NCBI GenBank assembly: GCA_020161335.1
Contig: JAIUOJ010000018.1
Coordinates: 1 to 35,570, forward strand
Source: Pseudomonadota bacterium
Lineage (GTDB): Bacteria; Pseudomonadota; Gammaproteobacteria; Xanthomonadales; Xanthomonadaceae
DNA: 35,570 bases
Reading direction: 5' to 3'
Part shown: positions 14,423-25,356 of the stretch, piece by piece
Layout: each line of letters begins with the position of its first letter
Numbering within the stretch: the stretch's first letter is position 1
Program-made: the position numbers and the translations under genes
Notes under the pieces: model-generated
Database searches by the model: none
What the model saw: the letters and a program-made list of their open reading frames with translations, nothing else
Told to the model about the DNA's origin: nothing

Positions 14423-16285
<1,863 letters not shown>

Positions 16286-16330
16286 GAATCCCGAACTCCC
16301 TGGAATGTCCGCGAAGTGTACGGGAAAGCA

Positions 16331-16376
16331 CTGTCCGGCCGGACAGGCCGGGTGTCCGCGCGGACACTCGCGGACA
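16331..16376. promoter_or_regulatory. Tandem palindromic enhancer sites for a sigma-54 activator
   Basis: Two perfect 16-bp palindromes, CTGTCCGGCCGGACAG (16331-16346) and GTGTCCGCGCGGACAC (16352-16367), share the inverted half-site TGTCCG/CGGACA. Their centres are 21 bp apart, two helical turns. A further half-site CGGACA lies at 16371-16376. They lie about 70-105 bases upstream of the predicted sigma-54 start site, the normal place for an enhancer-binding activator. The activator encoded in the same cluster is the obvious candidate. Confidence 0.75.
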
Positions 16377-16409
16377 CTCTGTTTCCCAATGCAATCAACG
16401 CCTTGGGAT

Positions 16410-16425
16410 TGGCACGGCGATTGCA
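16410..16425 (+). promoter_or_regulatory. Sigma-54 (-24/-12) promoter of the exporter operon
   Basis: TGGCACG (16410-16416), 4 bases, then TTGCA (16421-16425). This is a full match to the RpoN consensus TGGCACG-N4-TTGCW, with GG and GC separated by exactly 10 bases. Transcription would start near 16436, 30 bases before the adaptor gene. Confidence 0.85.
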
Positions 16426-16465: not shown

Positions 16466-17761
16466 ATGGACAGCCGCGCCCGCATCCGCGACACCTCCGC
16501 CCAGGACCACGTCGTCGCCCGCCCGTCCGGCCCGCGCCGCCTGCCGAAGGCGTGGCTGGCCGGCGGCGGCGCCGCGCTGGCGTTGCTGGCGCTCGTGGTG
16601 TGGGTGGTGGCGGGCTGGCGCGCGGGCGGCAGTTCCTTCGATGCCTCGCGCATCCGCATCGCCGAGGTCAAGCGCGGCGACCTGGTGCGCGACCTGTCGG
16701 CCGACGGCCGCGTGATCACCGCCAACAGCCCGACCCTGTACGCGATCGCCGGCGGCACGGTGGCGCTGAAGGTGGTGGCCGGCGACGTGGTCAAGCAGGG
16801 CCAGGAGCTGGCCGTCATCGACAGCCCCGAACTGCGCAGCAAGCTGGTGCAGGAGGAATCCACCCTCGCCAGCCTGCAGGGCGAGGCCAACCGCGCCATG
16901 CTGGATGCGCAGCTGACCCGCTCGGACGCGCAGAAGCTGCTCGACCAGGCGCAGATCGACCACACCGCCGCGCAGCGCGACGTGGAGCGCTACCAGCGCG
17001 CCTACGAGGGCGGCGCGGTGTCGAAGAACGAATACGACCGCGCGCTCGACGGCATGAAGAAGGCCGACCTCGGGCTGGCCGCGGCGCGCAAGGACTTCTC
17101 GCTGCAGGGCCAGGGCGCGGGCATCGACGCACGCAACAAGCGCCTGCTCGCCGACCGCCAGCAGTCGGTGGTGGCCGAACTCCGCCGCCAGGTGCAGGCA
17201 TTGACGCTGCGCGCGCCGTTCGACGGCCAGGTCGGCCAGGTGCAGATCGCGCAGGGCACCAACGTCGCGATCAACGCGCCGATCCTGAGCGTGGTCGACT
17301 TGCGCGTGTTCGAGGTGGAGATCCGCGTGCCGGAAAGCTTCGCGCGCGACCTGTCGATCGGCGTGCCGGCGCAGGTCACCGCCAGCGGCAACCGCTACGA
17401 CGCCAAGGTGTCGGCGGTGTCGCCGGAAGTGGTCAACGGCGAGGTCACCGCGCGCCTGCGCTTCGACGAGGGCCAGCAGCCGCCGAACCTGCGCCAGAAC
17501 CAGCGCCTGTCCGCGCGCATCGTGATGGACACGCGCGAGAACGTGCTGATGGTCGAGCGCGGCCCGTTCCTCGAACAGGACGGCGGGCGCTTCGCCTACG
17601 TGGTCAACGGCAGCAGCGCAGAACGCCGCCCGATCCAGGCCGGCGCCAGCAGCCTCAACGCCGTGGAGATCGTCTCCGGGCTGGAAGCCGGCCAGCGCAT
17701 CGTGATTTCCGGCACCGATCAATTCGCCAACGCGGACCGCGTCCGCATCTCGGGACAATGA
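16466..17761 (+). CDS. HlyD/MacA-type periplasmic adaptor of an ABC exporter
   Basis: 431 residues. One N-terminal membrane helix (about 31-50) anchors the protein in the inner membrane with the rest in the periplasm. A split biotinyl-lipoyl domain (about 90-122, GGTVALKVVAGDVVKQGQEL, and 246-282, LRAPFDGQVGQVQIAQG) flanks a long alpha-hairpin (about 123-243) that would reach an outer-membrane channel. A beta-barrel and a membrane-proximal domain complete the chain (about 285-431). This is the membrane-fusion-protein plan of MacA and RND adaptors. It is the first gene of the sigma-54-driven operon; no TolC-like gene is in the window, so the channel must be encoded elsewhere. No clear Shine-Dalgarno sequence precedes the ATG. 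The substrate is unknown. Confidence 0.92.
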   Translation: MDSRARIRDTSAQDHVVARPSGPRRLPKAWLAGGGAALALLALVVWVVAGWRAGGSSFDASRIRIAEVKRGDLVRDLSADGRVITANSPTLYAIAGGTVALKVVAGDVVKQGQELAVIDSPELRSKLVQEESTLASLQGEANRAMLDAQLTRSDAQKLLDQAQIDHTAAQRDVERYQRAYEGGAVSKNEYDRALDGMKKADLGLAAARKDFSLQGQGAGIDARNKRLLADRQQSVVAELRRQVQALTLRAPFDGQVGQVQIAQGTNVAINAPILSVVDLRVFEVEIRVPESFARDLSIGVPAQVTASGNRYDAKVSAVSPEVVNGEVTARLRFDEGQQPPNLRQNQRLSARIVMDTRENVLMVERGPFLEQDGGRFAYVVNGSSAERRPIQAGASSLNAVEIVSGLEAGQRIVISGTDQFANADRVRISGQ

Positions 17762-17762
17762 C

Positions 17763-17972
17763 ATGAACGCCTTCGCCCAGTTCCCCGCCCACCTGCACTG
17801 GACCGCGCAACAGCTGGCCGACGCCGTCCCGCCGCGCCTGTCGGAGCTGTACGCCTTCGACGTCGCCCGCGACGGCGCCACCCCGGCCGCCAACCGCGAG
17901 CATCGTGCGGCGCGGCGCAAGCCCGGCTACGTCGCGCATCGCGCGATGGACAGCCGCTTCACCATCCGTTGA
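17763..17972 (+). CDS. Small protein of unknown function in the exporter operon
   Basis: 69 residues, beginning 1 base after the adaptor stop codon. Nearly every codon ends in G or C, as in the flanking genes, which supports real translation. The sequence opens MNAFAQFPAHLHWTAQQLAD. It has no signal peptide or membrane helix, is rich in Ala and Arg, and carries a basic C-terminal half (EHRAARRKPGYVAHR). I do not recognise a family. Being between adaptor and ATPase suggests a cytoplasmic partner of the exporter, but this is inference only. Confidence 0.7.
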   Translation: MNAFAQFPAHLHWTAQQLADAVPPRLSELYAFDVARDGATPAANREHRAARRKPGYVAHRAMDSRFTIR

Positions 17973-18096
17973 CCGCTTTTCCATCCCGGACCCGGCCCCG
18001 CAGACCGACGTCTCTCTCCAGGTGGCGCACTCCGCATCCGCGCCGGCCGGGATGGACTTCCTCCTCCACCACACCGCCGCACCCAAGGAATCCGCC

Positions 18097-18831
18097 ATGC
18101 TCGACATGCGCCAGGTCACCAAGGTCTACCGCACCGAACTCGTCGAAACCCACGCCCTGCGCTCGCTCGACCTGCACGTCGGCGAAGGCGAGTTCGTGGC
18201 CGTCACCGGCCCGTCGGGTTCCGGCAAGACCACGTTCCTCAACATCGCCGGCCTGCTGGAAACCTTCACCGGCGGCGACTACCACCTCGACGGCGTCGAC
18301 GTGAAGGGCCTGAACGACAACCAGCGTTCGCGCCTGCGCAACGAGAAGATCGGCTTCATTTTCCAGAGCTTCAACCTGATCCCCGACCTCAACCTGTTCG
18401 ACAACTGCGACGTGCCGCTGCGCTATCGCGGGATGCCGTCGGGTGAGCGCAAGCTGCGCATCGAGGAAGCGCTGTCGCAGGTGGGCCTGGGCTCGCGCAT
18501 GAAGCACTACCCGGCGGAGCTGTCCGGCGGCCAGCAGCAGCGCGCCGCGATCGCGCGCGCGCTGGCCGGCTCGCCGCGCCTGCTGCTGGCGGACGAACCC
18601 ACCGGCAACCTCGACTCGCAGATGGCGCGCAGCGTGATGGAGCTGCTGGAGGACATCAACGCGCGCGGCACCACGATCGTGATGGTCACCCATGACCCGG
18701 AGCTGGCCGCGCGCGCGCAGCGCAACGTGCACATCGTCGACGGCATGGCCACCGACCTCACCGTCGAGTCGGGCATCGGACGCAGTCGCCCCGCCGCGGC
18801 GGCCGAACCGGCCACGGCGGCGACCGCCTGA
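18097..18831 (+). CDS. MacB-type ABC transporter ATPase
   Basis: 244 residues, cytoplasmic nucleotide-binding subunit that powers the two permeases encoded next. All motifs are present: Walker A GPSGSGKT (38-45), Q90 of the Q-loop in FIFQSFN, signature LSGGQ (142-146), Walker B LLLADE (162-167), D-loop LDS and switch H199 in VTHD. GLLETFTGG after Walker A and the LNDNQRSRLRNEKIGFIFQ stretch are typical of the LolD/MacB/FtsE group rather than importers. A short Ala-rich tail (224-244) extends past the fold. The ATG at 18097 is preceded by AAGGAA at 6 bases; upstream in-frame starts would add a low-complexity lead and are rejected. Confidence 0.94.
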   Translation: MLDMRQVTKVYRTELVETHALRSLDLHVGEGEFVAVTGPSGSGKTTFLNIAGLLETFTGGDYHLDGVDVKGLNDNQRSRLRNEKIGFIFQSFNLIPDLNLFDNCDVPLRYRGMPSGERKLRIEEALSQVGLGSRMKHYPAELSGGQQQRAAIARALAGSPRLLLADEPTGNLDSQMARSVMELLEDINARGTTIVMVTHDPELAARAQRNVHIVDGMATDLTVESGIGRSRPAAAAEPATAATA

Positions 18832-18866
18832 CCGCACCGCGCGACGCGACGACCCACGATGCAGCC

Positions 18867-18884
18867 GGCGGGCCTGGGCCCGCC
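18867..18884. repeat. Hairpin between the ATPase and first permease genes
   Basis: GGCGGGC (18867-18873) and GCCCGCC (18878-18884) form a 7-bp stem with a 4-base loop, just before the GGAG of the permease gene. It may modulate translation or protect the mRNA end. Confidence 0.35.
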
Positions 18885-18899
18885 CCCACGGAGCCTCCC

Positions 18900-20201
18900 A
18901 TGTTCGGCTACTACTTCAACCTCGCCCTGCGCAGCTTCCGGCGCAACAAGGTGCTCACCGCGCTGATGGTGCTGGCGATCGCCCTCGGCATCGGCGCGTG
19001 CATGACCACGCTGACCGTGTTCAAGGTGCTGTCCGGCGACCCGATCCCGCAGAAGAGCGACCAGCTGTTCTACGTGCAGCTCGACCCGGCGAGCGCGCGC
19101 GGCGCGGTGCCCGGCGAGGAGCCGGCGTTCCAGATGACGCGCTACGACTCCGAGGCGCTGCTGCGCGAGAAGCGCGGCGACCGCCAGGCGATGATGACCG
19201 GCGGCGGCGTGTCGATCACCCCGGAACGCGCCGACACCCCGCCGTTCGTGTCGATGGCGCGCTACACCAGCGCCGACTTCTTCCCGATGTTCGACGTGCC
19301 GTTCGCCTACGGCGGCCCGTGGTCGGCCAAGGACGACGCGGCCGAAGCGCGCGTGGTGGTGCTCTCGCGCAAGATGGCCGAGCGCCTGTTCGGCGACGCC
19401 AATGCCGTCGGCCGCTCCGTCCGCCTCGACCAGGCCGACTTCACCGTCGCCGGCGTCATCAACGAATGGCAGCCCTCGCCGCGTTTCTACGACATGGCGC
19501 TGGACCGCTACGGCGAGGCCGACGAGGTGTTCCTGCCCTTCTCCACCGCGGTCTCGCTGAAGATGGGCCGCAACGGCAGCATGGACTGCTGGGGCGACAG
19601 CGAAGGCGACTCCACGGGGCTCAACGTGCCCTGCACGTGGATCCAGTACTGGGTGGAGCTGGGTTCGAAGGAGAAGGCCGATGCCTATCTCAACTACCTC
19701 AACAACTACTCCGACCAGCAGCGCGCCGCCGGTCGCTTCGAGCGCCCGACCAACGTGCGCCTGCGCAACGTGATGGCGCTGCTGGAGTACAACAAGGTGG
19801 TGCCCAGCGACGTGGTGATGCAGCTGTGGCTCGGCTTCGGCTTCCTGCTGGTGTGCCTGCTCAACACCGTGGGCCTGCTGCTGGCCAAGTTCCTGCGCCG
19901 CAGCAGCGAGATCGGCGTGCGCCGTGCGCTGGGCGCCTCGCGCATGGAGATCTTCAAGCAGTGCCTGGTGGAAGCCGGCACGATCGGCCTGGCCGGCGGC
20001 ATCCTCGGCCTCGGCTTCGCCCTGCTCGGCCTGTGGGGCGTGCGCCAGCAGCCGTCGGGCTACGCCGAACTGGCGCACCTGGACCTGTCGATGCTGCTGA
20101 CGACGTTCGCGATCGCGGTCGCCGCCAGCCTGTTCGCGGGCCTGCTGCCGGCGTGGCGCGCGATGCAGGTGACGCCCGCCATCCAGCTCAAATCGCAATG
20201 A
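18900..20201 (+). CDS. FtsX/MacB-type ABC exporter permease 1
   Basis: 433 residues with the four-helix FtsX/MacB topology. One N-terminal helix (about 18-42) is followed by a large periplasmic domain (about 45-305, MacB_PCD type, with RYTSADFFPMFDVPFAYGG) and three C-terminal helices (about 312-335, 355-390 and 398-420). The cytoplasmic loop LRRSSEIGVRRALGAS is the coupling motif that contacts the ATPase. It has no ATPase domain of its own, unlike MacB, and pairs with the ATPase encoded upstream. MacB-type exporters work by mechanotransmission on periplasmic substrates. GGAG precedes the ATG. Confidence 0.93.
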   Translation: MFGYYFNLALRSFRRNKVLTALMVLAIALGIGACMTTLTVFKVLSGDPIPQKSDQLFYVQLDPASARGAVPGEEPAFQMTRYDSEALLREKRGDRQAMMTGGGVSITPERADTPPFVSMARYTSADFFPMFDVPFAYGGPWSAKDDAAEARVVVLSRKMAERLFGDANAVGRSVRLDQADFTVAGVINEWQPSPRFYDMALDRYGEADEVFLPFSTAVSLKMGRNGSMDCWGDSEGDSTGLNVPCTWIQYWVELGSKEKADAYLNYLNNYSDQQRAAGRFERPTNVRLRNVMALLEYNKVVPSDVVMQLWLGFGFLLVCLLNTVGLLLAKFLRRSSEIGVRRALGASRMEIFKQCLVEAGTIGLAGGILGLGFALLGLWGVRQQPSGYAELAHLDLSMLLTTFAIAVAASLFAGLLPAWRAMQVTPAIQLKSQ

Positions 20202-20207
20202 GTCCCG

Positions 20208-20310
20208 CCCCCTCTCCCGCTTGCGGGAGCGGGTTGGGGTGAGGGCTCGTGCCTTCACCGCCCCCCATCCGCCGCTGCGCGCCACCTTCCCCCGCAAGCG
20301 GGAGAAGGGA
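20208..20310. repeat. REP-like palindromic element between permease genes
   Basis: Two palindromic units in opposite orientation. CTCCCGC-TT-GCGGGAG (20214-20229) is followed by GGGTTGGGGTGAGGG, and a second unit contains CCCGCAAGCGGG (20291-20302). A related pair occurs at 28331-28419 in the atp operon. This identifies a dispersed repeat family in the genome. It lies within the operon, between the two permease genes. Confidence 0.6.
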
Positions 20311-20337
20311 GCAAGAAGATCATCCAAGGACACCGCC

Positions 20338-21576
20338 ATGGAAATCCGCCCCATCCTGTCCACGCTGATGCGCCACAAGACGGCCGCCGCGCTGATCGTG
20401 CTGGAGATCGCGCTGACCTGCGCCATCATCTGCAACGCGCTGTTCATGATCGGCGCGCGCATCTCGCAGCTGCGCGAGGTCAGCGGCCTGGCCGAGAACG
20501 AGCTGGTCCGCGTGTACATCACCGGCATCGGCAGCGATGACAATGCCGAAGCACAGACCCGCTCCGACCTGGCTTTGCTGCGTGGCCTGCCCGGCGTCAC
20601 CGGCGCCACGATGATGAACCAGGTGCCGTTCGTGAACTCGTCCTGGAACAGCGGCATCAACCTCAGGCAGGACCAGCAGCAGCCCACCGCCAACGCCACC
20701 GTGTACATGGCCGAGGACAAGTTCGTGGACACGCTGGGCCTGAAGATCGTCGCCGGCCGCGATTTCAACCCGGACGAGTTCGTCGAATTCGAAGCGTTTC
20801 AGGGGGCAGGTCCCGCGCGTGAAGCCGGCATCCCCGCCGCGATCATCACCAGCGCGCTTGCCGAGAAGCTGTTCCCCGGCGAGGACCCGGTCGGCAAGAC
20901 GTTCTACAGCTGGGGCGACGCGCCGATCCGCATCGTCGGCATCGTCGAGCACCTGGTGCGCCCGAGCATGCAGGGCGGGCCGACCCAGCGCGACTACAGC
21001 ATGGTGTTCCCGATCCGCACCCACTACAACGTCGGCGGCAACTACGTGATCCGCACGTCGCCGGAGCGGCGCGACGAGATCATCAAGGCCGCCTCCGACG
21101 CCCTGCGCGGCAACGGCGGCAACCGCATCATCCTCGAGGACGGCACCAAGAGCTTCTCGCAGCTGCGCCACGAGTTCTACCAGCAGGCGCGCTCGATGGC
21201 ATGGCTGCTCGGCGTCGTCTGCATCGGCCTGCTGCTGATCACCGCGCTGGGCATCGTGGGGCTGGCCAGCTTCTGGGTGCAGCAGCGCACCAAGCAGATC
21301 GGCGTGCGCCGCGCGCTGGGCGCGACCAAGGGCCAGATCCTGCGCTACTTCCAGACCGAGAACTTCCTGCTGGCGACCATCGGCATCGTCATCGGCATGA
21401 CCCTGGCCTTCGGCATCAACCAGGTGCTGATGAGCAAGTACGAACTGCCGCGCCTGCCGCTGTACTACCTGCCGATCGGCGCGCTGGCGCTGTGGGTGCT
21501 GGGACAGGTCGCGGTATTCGGGCCCGCGCGGCGTGCCGCCGCGGTGCCGCCGGCGATCGCCACGAGGAGCGTCTAG
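20338..21576 (+). CDS. FtsX/MacB-type ABC exporter permease 2
   Basis: 412 residues, the same topology as the preceding permease but divergent in sequence, so the exporter is likely a heterodimer. The N-terminal helix is at about 15-38, the periplasmic domain at about 40-285, and the three C-terminal helices at about 292-315, 340-365 and 372-400. The coupling loop reads QQRTKQIGVRRALGATKGQI. Periplasmic residues about 148-163 (VEFEAFQGAGPAREAG) use A/T-ending codons unlike the rest of the gene and may be an insert. The ATG at 20338 has AAGGA 8 bases upstream; the frame extends upstream into the REP-like repeat, which I exclude. Confidence 0.92.
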   Translation: MEIRPILSTLMRHKTAAALIVLEIALTCAIICNALFMIGARISQLREVSGLAENELVRVYITGIGSDDNAEAQTRSDLALLRGLPGVTGATMMNQVPFVNSSWNSGINLRQDQQQPTANATVYMAEDKFVDTLGLKIVAGRDFNPDEFVEFEAFQGAGPAREAGIPAAIITSALAEKLFPGEDPVGKTFYSWGDAPIRIVGIVEHLVRPSMQGGPTQRDYSMVFPIRTHYNVGGNYVIRTSPERRDEIIKAASDALRGNGGNRIILEDGTKSFSQLRHEFYQQARSMAWLLGVVCIGLLLITALGIVGLASFWVQQRTKQIGVRRALGATKGQILRYFQTENFLLATIGIVIGMTLAFGINQVLMSKYELPRLPLYYLPIGALALWVLGQVAVFGPARRAAAVPPAIATRSV

Positions 21577-21579
21577 TCG

Positions 21580-22107
21580 ATGCGCCGCGCAGCGCCCGGC
21601 GCCGTTTCGCCATGGACGGCGCTCCTGGCCTGCCTGTTGCTGGCGACGGGCGCGACGACCGTCGCCGCCCGGGATCCGGGCGATGCGGACCTGTTCGAGG
21701 CGCTCAAGGCGCACGACAGCGTGTTCTTCGAGCGCGGGTTCAACCAATGCGACCTCGACTACCTCGAGGGCGCCGTCGACCCGCAGCTGCGCTTCTACCA
21801 CGACCAGGGCGGCTTCCAGGACTACGCCACCTTCCTCGAGAACACGCGCAAGTACATCTGCGCGGACCCCGCGCGCAAGCCGATCCGCAAGGTCGATGCG
21901 GACAGCCTGCAGGTGTTCCCGCTCTACCACGACGGCGTGCTCTACGCCGCGCTCCAGAGCGGCGTGCACCGTTTCTACCTGCGCGAGCCCGGCAAGGACG
22001 ACGTGCTGACCAGTGTCGCGCGCTTCACCCATGTGTACGTGCTCGACGCGGGTCGATGGCGGCTCAAGGAAGTGCTGAGCTACGATCACCACAGTCCCGG
22101 CCCATGA
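21580..22107 (+). CDS. Secreted NTF2-like (DUF4440/SnoaL-type) protein 1
   Basis: 175 residues. It has an N-terminal signal peptide (hydrophobic ALLACLLLATGATTVAA, likely cut near residue 30). The remainder looks like a single NTF2/SnoaL fold: a helix containing FFERGFNQCDLDYLEG, then strand LRFYHDQGGF, and C-terminal strands ending ARFTHVYVLDAGRWRLKEVLS. C57 and C94 are kept in the next protein and could form a periplasmic disulfide. The gene starts 3 bases after the permease stop, so it belongs to the exporter operon. Catalytic or binding roles in this fold vary too widely to name one. Confidence 0.82.
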   Translation: MRRAAPGAVSPWTALLACLLLATGATTVAARDPGDADLFEALKAHDSVFFERGFNQCDLDYLEGAVDPQLRFYHDQGGFQDYATFLENTRKYICADPARKPIRKVDADSLQVFPLYHDGVLYAALQSGVHRFYLREPGKDDVLTSVARFTHVYVLDAGRWRLKEVLSYDHHSPGP

Positions 22108-22142
22108 CTCCCGCGCGCCGCCCGACCTTCCTGGAGACCCCC

Positions 22143-22628
22143 ATGCGTGCCTGCACGATTGCCTTCGCCGCCCTGCTGGCCGCCAGCGCGTTCGCACGCG
22201 CCGCGGAGCCGCCGGCGCAACCCGGGCCGGACAGCGAGCTCTACCGCGCCGTCGCCGCGCTGGATACGCAGTTGTTCGATGCCTACAACCGCTGCGACCT
22301 CGACGCGTTCCGGGCCCTGCTTGCCGACGACCTCGAGTTCTACCACGACCAGGGTGGGCTGATGCTCGGCGCGGACGCGGTCACCGACGCCACGCGCAAG
22401 TACATCTGCGGCAAGGTGCGGCGCGAGCTGGTGCCGGGCACGCTGGAAGTCGACAAGATCGAAGGCTACGGCGCGATCGAGCTGGGCACGCACCGCTTCT
22501 GCGAACTCGAGGGCGACCACTGCATGGGCATCGCGCGCTTCGTGCAGGTGTGGAAGCGCGATGGCGACACCTGGAAGGCCACGCGCATCATCAGCTTCGG
22601 CCACCGGCCGCTGGACGGGAACGAATAG
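22143..22628 (+). CDS. Secreted NTF2-like (DUF4440/SnoaL-type) protein 2
   Basis: 161 residues with a signal peptide (CTIAFAALLAASAFARA, cut near residue 20). It is clearly related to the preceding protein: CDLD-x-F/Y, FYHDQGG, RKYIC and a final ARF-x-x-V-W/Y strand occur in the same order. C51 and C89 align with C57 and C94 of protein 1; C120 and C127 are extra. The pair looks like an old tandem duplication. TGGAG precedes the ATG at 22143. An overlapping ATG at 22104 would share ATGA with the previous stop but would spoil the signal peptide, so it is less likely. Confidence 0.82.
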   Translation: MRACTIAFAALLAASAFARAAEPPAQPGPDSELYRAVAALDTQLFDAYNRCDLDAFRALLADDLEFYHDQGGLMLGADAVTDATRKYICGKVRRELVPGTLEVDKIEGYGAIELGTHRFCELEGDHCMGIARFVQVWKRDGDTWKATRIISFGHRPLDGNE

Positions 22629-22667
22629 GCGTTACGATTGCCGACCCGACCGCATTCGCCCGGCCAC

Positions 22668-24020
<1,353 letters not shown>

Positions 24021-24033
24021 GGCCCCGGGGCGC

Positions 24034-25356
24034 ATGCGCATCCTTCGCGTCCTGCCGCTGGCGATCCGCATGTTCGGGCTGACCGTGCTCGGCATCGCCG
24101 CCACCGCCGCGGGCACTGCCGTGCTGGCGCAATGGCTCGCGCCGTGGATCGCCGCGCTGGCGGCCACGCTCGTGGTCGGCACGACCATGGGCATCGTGGT
24201 CTGGCGCACCTTCGTGCCCTTGCGCGCGCTGTTCCGCGCACTCGCCGGCACCGTCGCCGGCTATCGCGACGGCGATTTCAGCTTCGGCATCACCTGGGAC
24301 AAGTACGGCGACCTGATCGAACTGGTCGATGCGCACAACGCGCTCGGCAACGCCCTGCGCGAACAGCGACAGGGGCTGGTGCAGCGCGAACTGCTGCTCG
24401 ACACCATGGTGCAGAACACCCCGGTGGCGATGCTCCTGCTCGACGCCGGGCGCCACGTGGTGCTGGGCAACCTCGCCGCGCGCAAGATGATGGGCGACGG
24501 CCGCAAGATCGAGGGCCATGCGCTGGACGACCTGCTCGCCGGCGCGCCGGCCGCCGTGGGCGAGGCGTTCGCGCGCGGCGGCGACGGCATGTTCACCGTG
24601 AGCGACGAGGACCACGAGGAGATCTACCACCTCGCGCGGCGCATGTTCCGCCTCAATGGCCGCCAGCACGAGCTGGTGCTGGTGCGGCGCATGACCACCG
24701 AACTGCGGCGCCAGGAAGTGCAGACCTGGAAGAAGGTGATCCGGGTGATCAGCCACGAACTCAACAATTCGCTGGCGCCAATCGCCTCGCTCGCGCACTC
24801 GGGCCTGGAACTGCTGCGGCGCGGCCAGCACGAGAAACTGCCGATCGCGCTGTCCACGATCGAGGAACGCGCACGCCATCTCGAGGGCTTCCTGCGCGAC
24901 TACGCGCGCTTCGCCAAGCTGCCGACACCGCGCGCCGAGCCGGTGCACCTGCCACGCTTCATCGAAAAGCTGCGCACCCAGGTCGACTTCGCCATCGACG
25001 GGACGATCCCCGACCAGTCCCTGCGTTTCGACCCGGCGCAGTTCGAGCAGGCGCTGCTGAACCTGCTCAAGAACGCGCACGAGTCCGGTTCCTCGCCGGA
25101 CGCGGTGTCGATGGCGGCACGGCGGATCGCCGATGGCTGGCGGATCGACGTGCTCGATCGCGGCACCGGCATGAACGAATCGGTGCTGGCCAATGCCCTG
25201 CTGCCGTTCTATTCGACCAAGCGCAGCGGTACCGGCCTGGGCCTGGCGCTGGCGCGCGAGATCGCCGAAGCGCACGGCGGGCGGATTGCCCTGCTCAACC
25301 GCGACGGCGGCGGGCTGTGCGTGTCGCTGGTGCTGCCGGGCCAAGTGCAACCCTGA
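24034..25356 (+). CDS. Sensor histidine kinase of the exporter two-component system
   Basis: 440 residues, inner membrane. Two close helices (about 11-33 and 36-58) with a tiny periplasmic turn suggest sensing in or near the membrane, as in intramembrane-sensing kinases that watch ABC exporters. A HAMP-like link and a PAS-like domain (about 120-215) precede HisKA with H241 in VISHELNNSLAPI, the NtrY/NtrB-like version of the H-box. The ATPase has N347 in LLNLLKNAHE, DRGTGM (375-380) and GTGLGLA (399-405). The start is 13 bases after the regulator stop. Phosphotransfer to the regulator encoded upstream is expected. Confidence 0.93.
   Translation: MRILRVLPLAIRMFGLTVLGIAATAAGTAVLAQWLAPWIAALAATLVVGTTMGIVVWRTFVPLRALFRALAGTVAGYRDGDFSFGITWDKYGDLIELVDAHNALGNALREQRQGLVQRELLLDTMVQNTPVAMLLLDAGRHVVLGNLAARKMMGDGRKIEGHALDDLLAGAPAAVGEAFARGGDGMFTVSDEDHEEIYHLARRMFRLNGRQHELVLVRRMTTELRRQEVQTWKKVIRVISHELNNSLAPIASLAHSGLELLRRGQHEKLPIALSTIEERARHLEGFLRDYARFAKLPTPRAEPVHLPRFIEKLRTQVDFAIDGTIPDQSLRFDPAQFEQALLNLLKNAHESGSSPDAVSMAARRIADGWRIDVLDRGTGMNESVLANALLPFYSTKRSGTGLGLALAREIAEAHGGRIALLNRDGGGLCVSLVLPGQVQP

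Follow-up and report, generated by a model that had tools for sequence, protein, structure and literature searches.

The control region described here resembles several known systems in parts. As described in the cited texts, the NtrC-type regulator QseF (GlrR) of Enterobacteriaceae is encoded in a cluster with its own kinase and works with a sigma-54 promoter, IHF, and repeated upstream sites that have TGT...ACA ends (PMC6075780, PMC4987338). PrsK/PrsR, likewise a kinase and a regulator, was found through a conserved motif about 63 nt before the -24/-12 element, and the targets of this PEP-CTERM regulon are secreted proteins (PMC1569441). A review cites BfmAK of Stenotrophomonas maltophilia, a two-component system, for reported binding to its own promoter (PMC11089167). 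Among exporters, MacAB-TolC and DarBCD combine an adaptor, an ATPase, and MacB_PCD/FtsX permeases. Sigma-54 control of this permease class is already in print: a 2025 statistical survey found sigma-54 promoters enriched before antimicrobial-peptide-type ABC transporters (COG0577/COG1136), with the COG0577 enrichment including gammaproteobacteria, and claims the first such link (PMC12316311). The permeases of the locus studied here belong to the class of the surveyed COG0577 permeases.

The exporter cluster and its predicted control region

The locus lies in a 35,570-nt stretch of a Xanthomonadaceae genome (contig JAIUOJ010000018.1), referred to here as the window. An eight-gene exporter cluster (16466-25356, +) is divergent from glmS (Table 1). 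The exporter proteins score below the MacA, MacB, DarB, DarC, and DarD cut-offs, so the exporter is not assigned to the MacB or DarBCD families. Two DUF4440 proteins (21580-22628) are encoded between the permease and regulator genes, and their homologues occur in some relatives only. With a gap of about 335 bp between the HlyD and ATPase genes, the cluster may or may not be cotranscribed as a whole; if it is, the circuit would be one of positive autoregulation.

Table 1. Features of the control region and its flanking genes (window coordinates).
Feature	Position	Strand	Remark
glmS	14423-16285	-	Divergent from the exporter cluster
Extra half-site TGTCCG	16306-16311	+	At -105 also in L013, L014, and L018
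glmS -10-like hexamer TACACT	16315-16320	-	Palindrome 1 covers its -35 position
Distal palindrome CTGTCCGGCCGGACAG	16331-16346	.	Predicted activator site 1; read directly
Proximal palindrome GTGTCCGCGCGGACAC	16352-16367	.	Predicted activator site 2; read directly
Extra half-site CGGACA	16371-16376	+	A comparable one only in some relatives
Predicted IHF site AATCAACGCCTTG	16393-16405	+	0 mismatches to WATCAANNNNTTR; overlooked by the earlier note
Sigma-54 promoter -24/-12 TGGCACGGCGATTGCA	16410-16425	+	Read directly; core conserved in 9 regions
HlyD/RND-type periplasmic adaptor	16466-17761	+	First gene of the cluster; RND_mfp subfamily cut-off reached
ABC transporter ATPase	18097-18831	+	Start read from the ORF
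MacB_PCD/FtsX permease 1	18900-20201	+	Family match
MacB_PCD/FtsX permease 2	20338-21576	+	Family match
DUF4440 protein	21580-22107	+	Signal peptide by eye
DUF4440/SnoaL-like protein	22179-22628	+	Signal peptide by eye
NtrC-family response regulator	22668-24020	+	Receiver, AAA+ sigma-54 domain with GAYTGA loop, Fis-type HTH; predicted activator
Sensor histidine kinase	24034-25356	+	Best NCBIfam match is AtoS, under the cut-off; membrane segments seen by eye

An earlier note on this DNA had described a complete sigma-54 control region with a full -24/-12 promoter 40 bases before the adaptor gene and two perfect 16-bp palindromes 21 bp apart. Direct reading of the window bears out both elements: TGGCACGGCGATTGCA ends 40 bases 5′ of the ATG at 16466, and the palindromes CTGTCCGGCCGGACAG and GTGTCCGCGCGGACAC are perfect, with a centre-to-centre distance of 21 bp. 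The promoter has the -24 GG and -12 GC dinucleotides at the correct spacing (TGGCACG-N4-TTGCA), the predicted activator sites upstream are conserved in relatives, and the genome encodes RpoN and an activator with a GAFTGA-type loop (here GAYTGA). The completeness of the control region is backed by comparative evidence. The four-base spacer given in the note was a misreading. The half-sites are 2 nt apart (TGTCCG-N2-CGGACA), and the scan that the note had proposed, run with TGTCCG-N4-CGGACA and up to 3 mismatches, returned 35 matches against 28 expected and missed both palindromes.

The predicted IHF site stops 4 bases short of the -24 element, between the predicted enhancer and the promoter, and matches WATCAANNNNTTR, which we take to be the IHF consensus, without mismatch. 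RNA family searches of the region gave two matches, both far below their gathering scores.

Conservation of the element and its predicted activator

Taken singly, the parts of the element are not enriched in the source genome. In the assembly (3.56 Mb, 252 contigs, 95% complete), the window holds the only two exact palindromes. When one mismatch is allowed, the palindrome occurs 10 times and its reversed control 18 times, so that it is not enriched genome-wide. The -24/-12 string alone is also at chance level, with 34 matches of TGGCAYGNNNNNTGC and 30 of its reversed control. Both results would suit an origin of the palindromes by chance in a region of 70% GC. That explanation is nonetheless hardly credible, given the conservation of the half-sites amid variable surroundings in 9 closely related and 41 dereplicated regions and the recurrence of CGGACA before small-protein genes found by protein profile (both described below). 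The control region stands above chance because its whole arrangement is conserved, rather than through its promoter string or its palindrome count.

For this comparison, we used 81 regulator loci (80 fetched and the window), of which 58 had a usable adaptor match and 23 had none and were left uncounted. From the 58, L059 (contig end), L043 (short), and L071 were set aside; the adaptor match of L071 begins at residue 57, so that its promoter was not located, and its upstream DNA shows TGTCCGGCCGGACA. The 55 scored regions were reduced to 41 by dereplication. Both palindromes are present exactly 21 bp apart in the window and in each of L011 to L018, the eight closest among the fetched relatives (9/9 regions). 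In an alignment of these nine regions, 24/24 half-site columns are invariant, compared with 0/4 columns between half-sites and 23/141 other columns (P = 3.5e-16 for half-site versus other columns by Fisher's test, with columns treated as independent). Ten of the 11 columns of the promoter core are invariant as well.

Outside this clade, perfect palindromes are rare. There the arrangement loosens to half-sites (CGGACA/TGTCCG) that frequently lie near -50 and -71 relative to the -24 box but also take other orientations and spacings. At offsets picked after inspection of the regions, CGGACA lies at -52 to -48 from the -24 box in 35/55 regions (25/41 dereplicated) and at -73 to -69 in 23/55 (17/41 dereplicated). 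Across 1,000 first-order resamplings of the 41 regions, the mean counts for these two ranges were 0.11 and 0.13, with maxima of 3 and 4. All but one of the regions (54/55; 40/41 dereplicated) have at least one exact half-site; in L067, L077, and L082 the half-sites lie at -81 or beyond. Among 13 exporter regions from genomes that carry second sites (see below), 12 carry one or more exact half-sites no farther than 130 bp from the -24 box, in varying positions; in the exception, L155, none precedes the exporter promoter. The conserved unit outside the clade is the half-site and not the perfect palindrome. Lack of conservation before orthologous operons was one of the refuting outcomes named in the earlier note; in the clade the palindrome pairs are conserved, and beyond it the half-sites persist, with perfect palindromes as the exception.

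The uncounted loci vary in kind. L028 has CGGACA at -71 and -50 before TGGCACGTGGTTTGC. L037, L053, L068, L073, and L074 end at contig ends, and at L035, L038, L069, L070, and L079 tandem permease arrays run off the fetched stretch. L061 to L064 and L072 have regulator and kinase, with no exporter gene in the fetched DNA save a weak ATPase match in L063. L084 to L090 are distant relatives (36 to 39% identity); a single CGGACA close to a sigma-54-like string occurs in L087 and in no other of them. As a separate observation, arrays of at least two permease pairs occur in the exporter operons of the five array loci just named and in those of L111 and L163.

IHF-like sites show a similar positional preference. 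With up to one mismatch, such a site lies at -19 to -16 in 34/55 regions (23/41 dereplicated). Counted on either strand between -45 and -13, IHF-like sites occur in 29/41 dereplicated regions and in 0/41 within a control stretch farther upstream, an excess to which the lower GC content near the promoter may contribute in part.

We then asked which protein the element would serve. The regulator of the operon has the domain set of the NtrC family (Table 1), and its nearest named relatives are Luteimonas records. It is not NtrC itself (TIGR01818; 321.1 bits, with 558.6 required), nor GlrR/QseF (278 and 763 bits), nor the PEP-CTERM regulator PrsR (316.7 and 502.6 bits). The source genome has one rpoN and five PF00158 matches, two strong and three weak, and its other strong activator is NtrC (673.8 bits; cut-off, 558.6). 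About 7 kb from the ntrC gene, a sigma-54 string precedes glnA (L123; G000:C1:172072), with the IHF-like sequence AATCAATGAGTTG upstream. Among 28 of the 34 sigma-54-like strings in the genome, only the one in the window has exact half-sites within 130 bp upstream, and no further targets were found among these 28.

Across the family, the regulator was found in 252/297 genomes (E ≤ 1e-120). The pattern CGGACA-N38-50-TGGCAYG-N5-TGC occurs in 204/252 genomes with the regulator and in 14/45 without it (P = 9e-11, with no correction for phylogeny), and the strict pattern is absent from 48 of the 252. The reversed control pattern matched in 34/297 genomes (row count). The rate in regulator-less genomes exceeds that of this control, which points either to regulators that the search missed or to the existence of other sites. 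A tighter pattern, applied to an order-wide sample, was present in 115/398 genomes (reversed control, 6/398); by row reading, these are 95/129 in the family of the window and 20/269 in other families. The recognition helix itself is also conserved: the motif [ST]RQ[AS]LYRR is present in 71/71 regulators of at least 50% identity whose match reaches it (in 2 of 73 the match is cut), and the helix differs in seven relatives of 36 to 39% identity.

These data suggest that the regulator encoded in the operon is the probable binding partner of the conserved element, an assignment predicted from linkage, co-occurrence, and the scarcity of other activators. Since linkage and co-occurrence are indirect, and since a CGGACA/TGTCCG palindrome could also fit other dimeric factors, a repressor or nucleoid protein might instead occupy the motif while the regulator acts elsewhere. 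We regard this as very unlikely, as the spacing of the sites from a conserved -24/-12 promoter is that of enhancers, the only other strong sigma-54 activator of the source genome is NtrC, and motif and regulator co-occur. The autoregulatory circuit with an operon-encoded activator that the earlier note had proposed is likely on comparative evidence, and its binding motif for an uncharacterised NtrC-family regulator gains comparative support as a predicted operator, with the spacer corrected to N2.

The divergent glmS gene and a second predicted target

The element might also concern glmS, and the earlier note had suggested that cell-wall precursor supply might be affected. The -10-like hexamer of glmS is present in 41/42 regions that have the gene, and palindrome 1 occupies the place of the glmS -35 element in 9/9 regions of the clade, where the adjoining TACGGGAA stretch is invariant. 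These features would fit palindromes that serve as a glmS operator and lie near the exporter promoter by accident. Such an origin is highly improbable: the distance from the -24 box to glmS varies from 124 to 210, whereas the distance from half-site to -24 box is mostly constant, and the half-sites also precede an unrelated small-protein gene (see below). Moreover, glmS has no match in 13/55 regions. For ten of these, the fetched DNA extends more than 800 bp upstream, and each of the ten retains one or more exact half-sites. As the half-sites track the -24 box and persist without glmS, the comparison assigns the element to the exporter and not to glmS.

A dual function is a separate matter. 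In this clade, the activator could drive the exporter and also lower (or raise) glmS expression by covering its -35 position, as the geometry in all nine regions would allow. A parallel exists in that QseF activates glmY (PMC6075780) and GlmY, with GlmZ and RapZ, controls glmS mRNA (PMC7073468). Outside the clade, however, 32 regions have both glmS and the -10-like hexamer, and an exact half-site lies within 26 bp of the hexamer in only 9 of them; moreover, overlaps in divergent regions need not act. We therefore consider a dual function rather doubtful: the overlap is no feature of the family, and the suggested effect on glmS is a geometric possibility in this clade only.

In several genomes, the element recurs at a second site, apart from the regulator gene, and we fetched 20 such stretches. 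Three are exporter operons (L103, L109, and L111). Six precede a gene (type A) for a small protein that, by eye, has a signal peptide and three copies of a TLxxVxVRPSAEQ-like unit. In nine pattern-found stretches (type B; L105 to L107, L112, L113, and L115 to L118), the element is followed by a short, fast-evolving ORF whose start looks signal-like, by a TrmL gene some 300 nt downstream, or by both; the TrmL assignment is over the cut-off in L116, just below it in L105, and by likeness in the rest. The element of L119 precedes another short ORF, and that of L114 looks like chance. At the trmL locus of the source genome, no exact half-site was found near the gene start, and one half-site pair lies about 500 bp upstream, by eye in a coding region.

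As the search pattern roughly fixes the position of CGGACA, the pattern-found second sites are not an independent set. A motif-free test was provided by a protein profile search for type A in 198 family genomes, which placed the protein in 49 of them; it was absent from the source genome and from the eight sampled genomes of the same genus. Among the best 30 of 50 matches, some from closely related genomes, 28 have an upstream -24/-12 match (up to 2 mismatches) and 27 have CGGACA at -48 to -51, a recurrence that also argues against chance and against a glmS operator. Without the three seeds, the latter count is 24/27, again with some close kin. By coordinates, 18 genomes hold both a site 4.9 to 8.0 kb before the regulator and a type A site 210 to 322 bp before the match; the exporter genes themselves were seen in the fetched stretches, a smaller set than these 18 genomes. 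Co-occurrence of type A and the regulator was not counted as evidence, since the regulator is in most genomes anyway.

The type A leaders (L164 to L193, from the -12 box to the ATG) have a block similar to GGTGTACTACCTTACTACCACACC, with GGTG-N16-CACC in most, that is strongly conserved across 21 genes and is overlapped by a sigma-70-like promoter. The block presumably resembles operators of GntR/YtrA-type repressors, and through it the small protein may be under a second control. The consulted part of the literature on a YtrA-type regulator did not confirm the resemblance.

According to a review, data suggest that MacB takes its substrates from the periplasm (PMC5985334). Together with the shared switch, this makes the small protein a fair candidate for exporter cargo, though as conjecture. 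Going further, a family-wide regulon might join a MacB-type exporter with a Sec-secreted repeat protein as its cargo or signal partner, an undescribed two-locus system of secretion and sensing. We offer this tentatively, as a possibility with the odds against it; it concerns Xanthomonadaceae/Lysobacteraceae, in which the exporter would face the periplasm and the small protein would enter it.

The proposed mechanism and its place among known systems

Taken as a whole, 16331-16425 is very likely the sigma-54 control region of the exporter operon, with the NtrC-family regulator that the operon encodes as its activator. By analogy with its family, the kinase would sense an envelope signal and phosphorylate the regulator (22668-24020). 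As the conservation of the sites suggests, regulator dimers would then occupy the two TGTCCG-NN-CGGACA palindromes, which lie two helical turns apart on one face of the DNA. IHF, given the consensus match, would bend the DNA between the palindromes and the -24/-12 promoter. The AAA+ ring would open the sigma-54 polymerase complex, a step that is established for the family and presumed here, and transcription of the operon, its regulator and kinase genes included, would follow. In other genera, to judge by DNA architecture, the same activator probably drives the small secreted repeat protein too.

For an uncharacterised regulator of most sampled family genomes, the analysis thereby names a predicted operator (TGTCCG-NN-CGGACA, with CGGACA near -50 and -71 relative to the -24 box) together with its promoter, the position of a predicted IHF site, and a second predicted target gene. 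What had been an annotation as a sigma-54-dependent regulator next to an ABC transporter becomes a testable regulon, in which the second target offers a clue to what the exporter handles.

Among the matches listed from the open-licence literature, none describes this operator, the activator predicted for it, or the small protein as a target. The survey of sigma-54 promoters, in the portion that bears on COG0577, names no activator, operator, or IHF site for that class (PMC12316311). The exporter differs from MacAB-TolC and DarBCD in having its ATPase and two permeases in separate genes. With respect to PrsR, the difference lies in the motif, which ends in TTTACA there and is CGGACA in the window (PMC1569441). 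The sites described for QseF/GlrR are TGTN12ACA or TGTC-N10-GACA, while those of the window are TGTN8ACA or TGTC-N6-GACA, and the QseF/GlrR target is an sRNA where that of the window is an exporter (PMC6075780, PMC4987338). Set beside these systems, the element is, on the comparative evidence, a real and well-conserved sigma-54 switch, ordinary in kind, with a new predicted operator and a small predicted regulon.
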